Source: Flavobacteriaceae bacterium (lineage in GTDB: Bacteria > Bacteroidota > Bacteroidia > Flavobacteriales > Flavobacteriaceae). From it: a DNA stretch of 36,200 bases. Shown one piece after another: positions 8,725 through 36,200 of the stretch. Positions within the stretch are counted from its first letter, which is position 1; each line of letters opens with the position of its first letter. The position numbers were made by a program, and so were the translations under genes. Under the pieces are notes generated by a model, which searched no databases, was not told the DNA's origin, and saw nothing but the letters and a program-made list of their open reading frames with translations. Location of the stretch: assembly GCA_009693635.1 (NCBI GenBank), contig SHWW01000011.1, forward strand, positions 1-36,200. The letters run 5' to 3'.

Positions 8725-8795
8725 TTTATTTTTTATTCGTTATTTATAATTGTTGTGCTTTTTAAACATTTCTAAGTATTCAAATGAAAAAAACA

Positions 8796-8858
8796 TAGCC
8801 CTGATGGCATTGGAAATCCCTCGCTTTTTAGCGAGGATTGAAGCGGACAGCAGGAAAA
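8796..8858 (+). repeat. Dispersed intergenic hairpin repeat, copy 1
   Basis: TAGCCCTGA...CCTCGCTTTTTAGCGAGGATT...GACAGCAGGAAAA; gapless 48/63 match to the reverse complement of 16657-16719. Confidence 0.85.
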
Positions 8859-9033
8859 TGAATTACTGAAAATGCCAAAAATTTCGCTCCTAGAAAAAGA
8901 GATTATGAATTGGTACGTTTTTTGTAATTACTACAAAAGTAAATAATTATGTACAGTTTAAAAAGGGAAATATAAATTTGTGCAATTAATTAAAATAAAG
9001 TAGATTTACATGAACTAATTAAATTATACCTCG

Positions 9034-32490: not shown

Positions 32491-33444
32491 ATGAATACAA
32501 TAACCATAACCGATTTTAATTTTCCGAATCAAAAATCGGTTTATCGCGGTAAAGTTCGCGAGGTTTACAACATTAATGACGACCTTTTAGTCATGGTTGC
32601 CACCGATAGACTTTCGGCCTTTGATGTAGTGATGCCAAAAGGAATTCCTTATAAAGGGCAAATTCTAAATCAGATTGCGACTAAATTCATGGAATTGACG
32701 CAAGATATTGTGCCGAATTGGTTGGTTGCTACTCCAGATCCAAATGTAGCTGTTGGTCATTTATGTGAGCCTTTTAAGGTTGAAATGGTGATTCGCGGTT
32801 ATGTTTCGGGACACGCTGCCAGAGAATATGCTTTGGGAAAACGAATTTTGTGTGGCGTTACTTTGCCAGAAGGATTGAAAGAAAATGATAAATTTCCAAC
32901 ACCTATTATTACGCCTTCTACAAAAGCGGATAATGGCGAACACGATGAGGATATTTCTCGGGAAGATATTATATCCAAAGGAATTGTTAAGGAAGCGGAT
33001 TATGTGGTTTTAGAAAAATATACTAGAGCTTTATTTCAAAGAGGAACTGAAATTGCTGCCAGTCGCGGATTGATATTAGTGGATACTAAATATGAATTTG
33101 GAAAAACAAAAGAAGGAAAAATCGTTTTGATTGACGAAATTCATACGCCAGATTCTTCTCGTTATTTTTATACAGAAGGATACCAAGAACGACAAAACAA
33201 CGGCGAAGAGCAAAAACAACTTTCTAAAGAGTTTGTAAGACGCTGGTTAATCGAAAATGGCTTTCAAGGAAAGGAAGGGCAACAAATTCCAGAAATGACT
33301 GACGATTATATTGCCACAGTTTCAGAACGTTATATTGAATTGTATGAAAATATAATGGGTGAAAAATTTGTGAAAGCGGATATTTCTGATATAAATATTA
33401 GAATTAAAAAAAATGTTTTAGAGAATTTGGCTAAAATACAGTAA
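32491..33444 (+). CDS. purC: Phosphoribosylaminoimidazolesuccinocarboxamide synthase
   Basis: [57 protein letters not shown]. Confidence 0.97.
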
Positions 33445-33509: not shown

Positions 33510-33636
33510 ATTTTAATTATGAAGTTGTTAACAATTTAATAATTATATGTTTAATAACTTTTTTAAACATTGATATTATTTTGCTCTAAATTAATTAAGT
33601 TTGATATTAAATTAACGATATTTTAAGTATTGTTAA

Positions 33637-33722
33637 TGATAGTGGAGTCCAGAAACCATAACATAAACTGGGGAGAAACTGAAAATCCTTAAGAGTAGGA
33701 AAATTTTTTATAACCACTATTA
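33637..33722 (+). ncRNA. Candidate structured 5' leader (riboswitch-like or cis-regulatory)
   Basis: TGATAGTGG (33637-33645) pairs with CCACTATTA (33714-33722), 9 bp with one G:U, enclosing 68 nt with CCAG/CTGG and TCCT/AGGA sub-helices; ATG of the downstream gene at 33735. Confidence 0.35.
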
Positions 33723-33734
33723 AAATAATAAATT

Positions 33735-35792
33735 ATGGAAAAATTGACATTATTTTTTGGAAGTACATTATCTGTTCTAATCGTTATTTATCTACTGGGT
33801 AGATTTTATTCAGAACTCCTTCAAAGGCAGATCCCTAAAATACTTAACCTTGAAGAGATTAGAGATAATATAAGAAAATCAAATGGAATTTGGGAATTTA
33901 CAATTCCTTTCGCTCTTGTTTTTGGATTTATATTTAATGTTATTGCTACTGGAATTTGGTTTATTGGAGAAGTTATTGTTTGGGGTTTAAAATTAGCAAA
34001 ATGGTTATTTACTGAATTTTTTATTCCAGGAGTTTGGTTTTTAGTTCGAATGGCATGGCATTATATAGTAATTTGGCCATGGACTATTATTAAAATAGGT
34101 TTTAATCAACTAAAAAACGGATTTAATGTTGGGCAATATAAAGTTGCTGTAGCAGGTTTGTTTTTTACTTTTTTAATTTCTTTTTTAGGTAGATTTTTTG
34201 CAACTTGTTTTGGTTATGAATGGTGTATTCATGTTGCAACCGTATTGTCATTATTTCCAATTGGAATTTGTTTAACAGAAATTGCCTGGATGCATGGAAA
34301 TCAAGGAAATGAGTTCAATAATTCTCATAGAATCAAATATTTAAAACACCTTGGTATATTAATTGGCTTTTTCGGACTTTTATTTGTTATAGAAGCACTT
34401 TTAATTAAATTAGGAACTACTACAAATTATTCTAACGCCTTTTCTTCACTTCTTATAGGCGGAACTTTAATATCTTCTTTATTTATATTGTTTAATGCAG
34501 TATTATTATTGTTTATTTTTAGTGCTTTACCTTCTTTCAGTCCAAATTATTCAGGAACATTGAAAGAATTCCCTGGGGCTTTGTGGAATCATATTAAAAG
34601 TAAAGGATTACAATATTTATTAACTTTATTGGCAACTTTGGTTCCGATGATAATTTTAGCTGTAATTCCTTACTATTTAACTTCTGGTATTGTTAATATT
34701 ACACAAAATACAACAAATCAGATCTATGACAGAGAAATAAATTCAGCACAAAAAGATTCTTCTGTTATCGATTATAATGTTTGGTATAACACGGATTCTA
34801 TCTCTAATCAAAAATTAGATGAATTATTTGCTAAAGATAAAGTTTCATTTCAAAATAAACGTCACATAGCTATATTAACTTCTAGCAAAGATTATCTTAA
34901 TAGTGTTTACAGTAAACACAGCGATCCTATTTTAGCTACACCACTTTTTTCTTTATTTGCTGCATACGGAAAATATAATAATTTGCAATCAGAAACAGTA
35001 AACATTAATAGACCTGAGCAAACTATATTTTTTGAGCAACCATTAAATAATGATAAGTCTAATGCAGAGGGAATTGAAAAAGATGTAGAGACTATTCTTG
35101 CAGATAAAGAAAGTTATAAAAGTCAAGTATGTAATGAAACTTCAAGTCCTGTAGTTGAAAGTCAAGATGCTGCTCGAGCTGAAGCTCCAGCACAAGAACC
35201 TGCAAATGAAGATAATTGTGCATTGGCTAAAAAACAAGTTGATAAAGCAACTTTGTTATTAGCTAGATCCAAAAAAATTACCTCCTATCATAAAGATATG
35301 ATAGATTATTCAAAATCAATTAACGGCGCTGAATCCAATTCAAATTATTTAGCATGGTTATTTGCATCAATGTGGATTTCATTATTGCTAGCATTGTCTT
35401 TTGGATTTTCCTTAGCTTTATTTGCAAGAACCAATCAAACTATTTATTCAAAAGATGATGGGGCTGATGAATATGTTTTTGTTGGAGAAATAAAAAGAAT
35501 GAATGCTATTAATTCCAATCAACCTTTATTAGCTTTAGGAATTTTATTTGGTTTAATATTTTTATCATTATCTTCATTAGGGACTTTCTTTGATAAAATA
35601 AAGGATATTTTCCCAAATAATGTAAATCCAATTGTTAATTCTGCCCCACTATCAGTGGATGATTCTGTTTATACAGATTCAATTCAAGTTACTTCAGATA
35701 CAATGGCTGTGGCTTTAGATACAGCTGCTGTTGATTATCCTGAGTATCAAGAAATGCCTGCAGATACAGTATACGCAGCCCCACAATATTAA
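33735..35792 (+). CDS. Large multi-pass membrane protein of unknown function
   Basis: 685-aa ORF, several Trp-rich TM segments in the N-terminal half, a soluble Ser/Asn/Lys-rich middle, two further TM segments, Asp/Ala/Tyr-rich tail. Confidence 0.88.
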   Translation: MEKLTLFFGSTLSVLIVIYLLGRFYSELLQRQIPKILNLEEIRDNIRKSNGIWEFTIPFALVFGFIFNVIATGIWFIGEVIVWGLKLAKWLFTEFFIPGVWFLVRMAWHYIVIWPWTIIKIGFNQLKNGFNVGQYKVAVAGLFFTFLISFLGRFFATCFGYEWCIHVATVLSLFPIGICLTEIAWMHGNQGNEFNNSHRIKYLKHLGILIGFFGLLFVIEALLIKLGTTTNYSNAFSSLLIGGTLISSLFILFNAVLLLFIFSALPSFSPNYSGTLKEFPGALWNHIKSKGLQYLLTLLATLVPMIILAVIPYYLTSGIVNITQNTTNQIYDREINSAQKDSSVIDYNVWYNTDSISNQKLDELFAKDKVSFQNKRHIAILTSSKDYLNSVYSKHSDPILATPLFSLFAAYGKYNNLQSETVNINRPEQTIFFEQPLNNDKSNAEGIEKDVETILADKESYKSQVCNETSSPVVESQDAARAEAPAQEPANEDNCALAKKQVDKATLLLARSKKITSYHKDMIDYSKSINGAESNSNYLAWLFASMWISLLLALSFGFSLALFARTNQTIYSKDDGADEYVFVGEIKRMNAINSNQPLLALGILFGLIFLSLSSLGTFFDKIKDIFPNNVNPIVNSAPLSVDDSVYTDSIQVTSDTMAVALDTAAVDYPEYQEMPADTVYAAPQY

Positions 35793-35886: not shown

Positions 35887-35997
35887 TTAGGTTAAATCGT
35901 TCGTTTCCTTCTTTAAATATGATTTAAATTAACCAAATGACTGCTGTAATTTTCCAATTTAAAACTTTTCCGTAAATTTACTACTTAAATGATTAAT

Positions 35998-36200
35998 ATG
36001 AGAAAGATAAAATATAAGAAAGGTATAAAATTGCACCCTTTTAGCCTAGAGTATACAGGAATTCATAATGAGACAGATTCAGAAATGCAACTGTTTGTTT
36101 ATGATAGTTTTAATTTATCTGAATATGAAGATTTTCCTTTTTCTAAATTAGAAAAAAGCATTGATCATAAAAAAATAAATTGGCTCAATATCCATGGATT
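35998..36200 (+). CDS. corA: CorA-like Mg2+/Co2+ transporter, N-terminal fragment (runs off window)
   Basis: Translation MRKIKYKKGIKLHPFSLEYTGIHNETDSEMQLFVYDSFNLSEYEDFPFSKLEKSIDHKKINWLNIHG resembles the CorA N-terminal domain (WLNIxG). Confidence 0.7.
   Translation, partial: MRKIKYKKGIKLHPFSLEYTGIHNETDSEMQLFVYDSFNLSEYEDFPFSKLEKSIDHKKINWLNIHG

Follow-up and report, generated by a model that had tools for sequence, protein, structure and literature searches.

A flavobacterial DUF805-class leader RNA with a predicted double-pseudoknot fold, upstream of a probable rhodopsin-locus gene

The leader RNA at positions 33637–33705 of the window (the whole 36,200-nt stretch of a Flavobacteriaceae contig analysed here) is, with practical certainty as judged from its sequence, a member of the DUF805 class (Rfam RF03081). 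It is an ordinary copy of a catalogued leader class, not an unknown RNA. It probably lies in the 5' UTR of a 685-aa membrane protein gene, where it is predicted to act in cis. For the class as a whole, comparative analysis shows a covariation-derived fold of two interlocked H-type pseudoknots (P1 with PK1, P2 with P3), in which the segments GAAAA and GAGUA are conserved and unpaired. The features of the window are collected in Table 1.

A cmscan search against Rfam 15 matched 33637–33705 to RF03081 at 68.8 bits (curated cut-off 51.1, E 8e-11), over the full length of the model (positions 1–68). Within 33637–33722 nothing but RF03081 scored above cut-off in all of Rfam, and no riboswitch family did. 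An earlier note on this DNA had placed the RNA in an unassigned class, which this match does not bear out; its description of a structured, probably cis-regulatory leader with internal helices agrees well with the RF03081 match and with P1, PK1, P2 and P3. In the cmscan alignment, P1 and P2 of the Rfam consensus are both present, P1 with one G-U, and no non-canonical pairs are flagged. Our own covariance model gave the window copy 71.4 bits, a score to be read with the copy itself being part of the training set. The letters and positions on which the earlier note was built are correct (TGATAGTGG at 33637–33645, CCACTATTA at 33714–33722 and an ATG at 33735, leaving a gap of 12 nt). The same holds for its remark that the core is less AT-biased than its surroundings (GC content 0.36 at 33637–33705 vs 0.16 upstream and 0.10 downstream).

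RF03081 is a cis-regulatory class without assigned function, belonging to clan CL00115. Reportedly, the class stems from a 2017 description of 224 candidate RNAs. The literature that we searched, to which this original description does not belong, held no discussion of DUF805 RNA. Among the genomes searched, 70 of 298 from the order and 57 of 297 from the phylum carry sites, and Pseudomonadota have them as well. A second DUF805 RNA of the same genome (L055, G000:C22:30198-30263) has a degenerate 3' half, scores 45.5 bits, which is below the cut-off, and precedes a 439-aa secreted-looking protein. The window also contains a Flavo-1 RNA (RF01705, 53.8 bits), a flavobacterial element, at 8793–8861, and two more of these are found near purC in L384.

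Table 1. Positions of the leader RNA, its helices and the neighbouring features in the window
Feature	Position	Strand	Basis or remark
SAICAR synthetase gene (purC), upstream	32491..33444	+	PF01259, E 3.6e-73; also precedes the leader in two related genomes
Flavobacterial -7 promoter box TAAGTTTG	33596..33603	+	consensus TAnnTTTG (PMC9723704); predicted TSS near 33608
DUF805 RNA (Rfam RF03081) leader element	33637..33705	+	cmscan 68.8 bits, cut-off 51.1
P1 hairpin	33642..33659	+	GUGG 33642–33645 with CCAU 33656–33659, one G-U; Rfam structure line, compensatory changes in family
PK1 pseudoknot	33649..33671	+	CCAG 33649–33652 (P1 loop) with CUGG 33668–33671; family covariation
3' half matching DUF805b (RF02914)	33670..33701	+	28.8 bits, cut-off 35.6
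P2	33672..33688	+	GGA 33672–33674 with UCC 33686–33688; Rfam structure line
P3 pseudoknot	33679..33699	+	CU 33679–33680 with GG 33698–33699 (C-G and U-G); family covariation
Unpaired GAAAA (33681–33685) and GAGUA (33693–33697)	33681..33697	+	near-invariant columns of alignment A1; candidate recognition site
3' arm of the 9-bp helix	33714..33722	+	in the lengthened spacer; among syntenic leaders, full complement of the P1 strand in the window genome only
685-aa membrane protein gene, downstream	33735..35792	+	relative in G026 (83% identity) lies beside blh and rhodopsin

Using genome searches for RF03081, a DNA pattern run on genome and viral collections and a covariance model (R1), we assembled 257 distinct sites. 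R1 was built with P1 and P2 only, and the Rfam consensus line holds just these stems (P1 as GUGG/CCAC, P2 as GGC/GCC); PK1 and P3, being absent from both, were therefore not built into the alignments. Many compensatory changes are seen in P1 and P2, the latter exchanging GGC/GCC, GGA/UCC and GGU/ACC. PK1 joins Y13, C14 and G16 of the P1 loop to the triplet immediately preceding P2, with A15 usually bulged. Its three pairs are formed in 161 (13x36), 158 and 161 of 169 sites, vs 138.6, 152.1 and 156.4 expected, and none of 2000 shuffles reached any of these values. Neighbouring registers are at or near chance, and the pairing is kept with variant loops (CUUGU/ACAAG, AUGU/ACAU, CUG/CAG, CCUU/AAGG). 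P3 is formed by the bases before GAAAA and those after GAGUA, which pair in 230, 235 and 146 of 240 sites (193.5, 231.2 and 124.0 expected, 0/2000 shuffles each); C-G is exchanged for U-A, and the third pair occurs as U-A, C-G, G-C or A-U.

In an independent count over all four helices, the share of paired cells was 93.2% (alignment A1), 94.5% (A2) and 94.1% (A4), with 49, 110 and 80 cells changed on both sides as compared to 13.6, 31.3 and 17.6 in shuffles. Structures that were slid along the alignment reached only 11–51% pairing. Although the shuffles keep the kinship among sites, three observations speak for PK1 and P3 as real structure, namely the slid controls, the thinned set and the loop variants. 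The elements follow one another in the order P1a-PK1a-P1b-linker-PK1b-P2a-P3a-GAAAA-P2b-GAGUA-P3b. Five sites (L061, L078, L264, L279, L317) carry a hairpin-like insert of 20–30 extra nt between linker and P2. The window copy is a weak example of this fold. Its P1 contains a G-U and lacks a fifth pair, and P3, the weakest helix, consists of two pairs of which one is U-G. PK1 is a continuous 4 bp in the window, whereas most relatives keep the A bulged.

The earlier note had proposed a different architecture, in which an unassigned, riboswitch-like RNA is closed by a 9-bp helix (33637–45 with 33714–22) that perhaps switches with P1. This helix is real in the letters (eight Watson-Crick pairs and one G-U), and it dominates the predicted ensemble, being favoured in isolation with pair probabilities of about 0.9–0.99 for eight of its nine pairs. 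It shares the GUGG strand with P1 and thus excludes this conserved hairpin, and such mutual exclusion is what a switch would need. Its 3' arm lies outside the RF03081 model. The fold of 33630–33735 has an energy of -17.9 kcal/mol (z = -1.61), and 13 of 200 dinucleotide shuffles were as good, so that energy alone makes no case for structure. Of the shuffles, 2.7% contained a match of 9 bp to the 3' flank of 29 nt, and the intergenic region contains 16 such helices vs about 11 in dinucleotide shuffles.

In relatives, the closing helix has no advantage over shuffles. When the first nine RNA bases were compared with the region preceding the AUG in 238 family members, the longest possible helix had a mean length of 4.03 bp (4.06 shuffled). 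On the alignment of seven syntenic leaders (A8), 56.7% of cells are paired in the 9-bp helix, compared to 58.7% in shuffles and 57.4% after a shift by one column; for the family helices, this alignment gives 95.5%. The leader of G026 (L008), whose gene was the one close orthologue found for the 685-aa gene, can form at most 5 bp of it. Complementarity requires CCAC, which among the syntenic leaders is present in the window genome alone; the spacer of the others mostly reads TTAACCAA.... Compensatory changes in orthologous leaders, to which the earlier note had looked as a test, are absent for the 9-bp helix, yet abundant for the family helices. On these comparisons we rejected it as a conserved structure, and the outer stem is, from all that can be read in the alignments, incidental to the conserved fold. 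Since the site also belongs to a known Rfam class, the riboswitch-like RNA of the earlier note is very improbable. By nearest-neighbour energies the 9-bp helix is nevertheless more stable than the family fold, whose pseudoknots are outside that energy model, and given this competitor the window copy could be misfolded or rewired.

Sites without P1 are called DUF805b by Rfam (RF02914, 35 positions), in a model that spans P2 and P3. They are commoner than DUF805, with up to 10 copies in a genome and presence in 34 of 40 relatives. The window copy stays below the curated cut-off of RF02914 (28.8 vs 35.6 bits). In a pattern set drawn from DUF805b loci, the three P3 pairs again exceed shuffles; spurious matches in this set lower the pairing percentages and leave the direction of the result unchanged. 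The simplest reading is that DUF805 and DUF805b would be variants of a single device, built on a P2/P3 core to which P1 and PK1 can be added as a brace. Several DUF805b-type leaders (L327, L332, L334, L351, L352) precede small ORFs that by eye resemble double-glycine leader peptides of peptide natural products (e.g. MKKLNLNKKTISALNQAEMKKINGGG).

The position of the RNA relative to the gene is constrained. From the end of the model to the ORF start, the family median is 15 nt, and 94% of sites fall within 5–35 nt; in the window the gap is 29 nt, on the same strand. The distance between the end of P3 and the AUG has a median of 21 nt (IQR 19–24, n = 231) and amounts to 35 nt in the window. Around -12 and at -3 before the start codons of the family, A is enriched, and an A-rich stretch around -12 and an A at -3 are the determinants of Shine-Dalgarno-free initiation in F. 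johnsoniae (PMC6847099). The consensus of the flavobacterial -7 box is TAnnTTTG, located at -12 to -5 (PMC9723704). We found this box at -75 to -10 in 41 of 162 sites of the order, where shuffles (about 0.7 per 5-nt bin) would give roughly 9. A transcription start downstream of 33645, which the earlier note had named as one that would speak against its leader, is not favoured in the window, as the box at 33596–33603 predicts a start near 33608. A strong hairpin is predicted at 33611–33637 (UUAACGAUAUU...AGUAUUGUUAA), between this start and the RNA; it may be a 5' stabiliser or an operator.

Because the promoter precedes the RNA, whose 3' end comes shortly before the place where ribosomes land, our best guess at the mechanism is control of translation initiation in cis, towards which we lean somewhat. 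The compact fold would reach as far as the 5' border of the 30S landing site. A ligand or partner read through GAAAA and GAGUA may stabilise or open the P2/P3 knot, and the state of this knot would set the access of the ribosome to the A-rich, Shine-Dalgarno-free start region of Flavobacteria. The 3' half, as in DUF805b, would then be the minimal unit and P1/PK1 an added brace, while the controlled unit in the lineage of the window would be the rhodopsin-associated locus.

The 250 ORFs that follow these RNAs form about 110 clusters. They include the PixA inclusion-body protein, DUF1842, SCO4226-like, AHSA1, DUF805 and TM2 proteins, and also phosphatidylserine decarboxylase, an MscS channel, aquaporin, scramblase and bacterial rhodopsin. 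The DUF805-domain cargo that gave the class its name is just one of these clusters (8 of 250 sites) and does not define it; no DUF805 domain was found in the 685-aa protein of the window. Judged by these predicted products, no single pathway is served by the genes downstream of DUF805 RNAs. A constitutive 5' element, that is a portable translation enhancer or an mRNA 5' stabiliser that responds to no signal, would explain such unrelated genes without a common pathway. The fixed distance to the AUG also fits an enhancer or stabiliser, and the element is intact in Pseudomonas. However, the near-invariant unpaired GAAAA and GAGUA together with two pseudoknots exceed the needs of a stabiliser, and only some genes carry the RNA, usually with 0–6 copies per genome. 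We regard a constitutive role as unlikely.

In several places (L391, L260, L264, L279) short genes stand in tandem runs, each with its own DUF805 RNA, and L391 has three copies in some 1.7 kb. Such repeated copies beside unrelated genes raised the idea of integron attC-like cassette boundaries, which we set aside on general knowledge, as covarying pseudoknots and a set distance to the AUG do not fit them.

The RNA is also found beyond Bacteroidota. Three Pseudomonas genomes (L079, L111, L117) carry it at 61.9–65.5 bits in front of a gene for a small 'VGGW' protein (cystatin-like by eye), a family that in Flavobacteriales follows the RNA more often than any other (26 sites). Their spacers contain a Shine-Dalgarno-like GGAG before the AUG in two genomes and GGGAG in the third, and the distance from RNA to AUG is kept. 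The conjugative plasmid pNK6d of Bradyrhizobium diazoefficiens (L395) harbors the same pair of RNA (62.2 bits) and 'VGGW' gene on a stretch with 86% DNA identity to that of Pseudomonas, suggesting that leader and gene were transferred together across phyla. Further copies were seen in contigs of viral collections.

This distribution bears on two other explanations. The RNA might be the binding site of a global RNA-binding regulator protein that unites many genes in one regulon. Such a site would be in keeping with the presence of one or a few copies in a genome, placed in front of accessory genes, with the tandem arrays in which each gene has its own copy (three in L391) and with the conserved purine-rich unpaired segments. 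However, the RNA sequence is preserved in Gammaproteobacteria and on an alphaproteobacterial plasmid, which argues against a protein restricted to Bacteroidota and makes this regulon quite improbable. It is also conceivable that the element acts as DNA, as an operator or the end of a mobile element, and only appears to be structured, as it is found in many unrelated places including plasmid and viral contigs. Covariation over two pseudoknots, a single orientation and the constant spacing before the AUG speak for an RNA rather than a binding palindrome, and we give a DNA-level role hardly any credence.

For the 685-aa protein, the label of an orphan membrane protein in the earlier note has been right so far: we found no confident Pfam or NCBIfam family (matches to Pfam YlaC and to NCBIfam entries were rejected, all being far below cut-off), and 400 genomes of the genus yielded one relative only (83% identity). 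Over the 150 nt that precede the RNA, the window aligns with leaders in six contigs of related genomes, and the gene order is purC or dnaK, promoter, DUF805 RNA and then a variable first gene. This is the 685-aa gene in the window and in G026, a 271-aa membrane protein gene in G002, G028 and G014:C134, and rhodopsin itself in G014:C29 and G035. In contigs that are long enough, blh (PF15461, on the opposite strand) and rhodopsin come next; the order differs in G002, where rhodopsin and blh lie on the other side. In the genome of the window itself (G000), contig C68 opens with a rhodopsin C-terminus, and the genes after it match those after rhodopsin in G026. Since the promoter and leader of relatives precede exchangeable genes beside blh and rhodopsin, the 685-aa "orphan" is probably a gene of the rhodopsin locus. 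A DUF805 RNA also lies immediately in front of rhodopsin in L069 and in L302, where two rhodopsins follow in tandem and each has an RNA to itself. Placement at rhodopsin or rhodopsin-blh genes is recurrent (L004, L010, L302, L069, L383–L388). At 35989–36200 of the window, an ORF truncated where the contig ends looks by eye like the N-terminal part of a CorA-type transporter; the 70 residues present gave no Pfam match.

Taken together, we tentatively suggest, as a possible but not the probable outcome, that DUF805 and DUF805b are a single device, a P2/P3 core with or without the P1/PK1 brace, which would control translation initiation of diverse accessory genes from a set distance to the AUG. 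It would respond to a general signal across Bacteroidota, Gamma- and Alphaproteobacteria, move with its gene and, in freshwater flavobacteria, control the rhodopsin locus. Provided that they are absent from the original class description, the two pseudoknots beyond the Rfam model are added here, as are the explicit link between DUF805 and DUF805b, the constrained start-codon distance, the cross-phylum transfer with the gene and the recurrent placement at rhodopsin genes. If DUF805 RNAs do sense a signal, they would represent a form of translational control in wide use among bacteria whose translation makes no use of Shine-Dalgarno sequences.

Compared to DUF805 RNA as catalogued (RF03081), the window copy is the same in sequence, length, P1, P2 and its place before the start codon. 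It differs in that the downstream gene encodes no DUF805-domain protein, an inserted U fills the PK1 bulge, the spacer to the AUG is 35 nt instead of about 21 in the family, and P3 is weak; the Rfam model as printed holds P1 and P2 alone, without pseudoknots. DUF805b (RF02914, same clan) covers with its 35 positions the half that holds P2, P3, GAAAA and GAGUAGG, but lacks P1 and PK1. Unlike the small pseudoknotted riboswitches of the preQ1-I type, DUF805 RNA has no single downstream pathway, and flavobacterial starts offer no Shine-Dalgarno sequence to sequester; the likeness, which we draw from general knowledge as a working analogy, lies in an H-type pseudoknot of 35–70 nt placed before the ribosome landing site.
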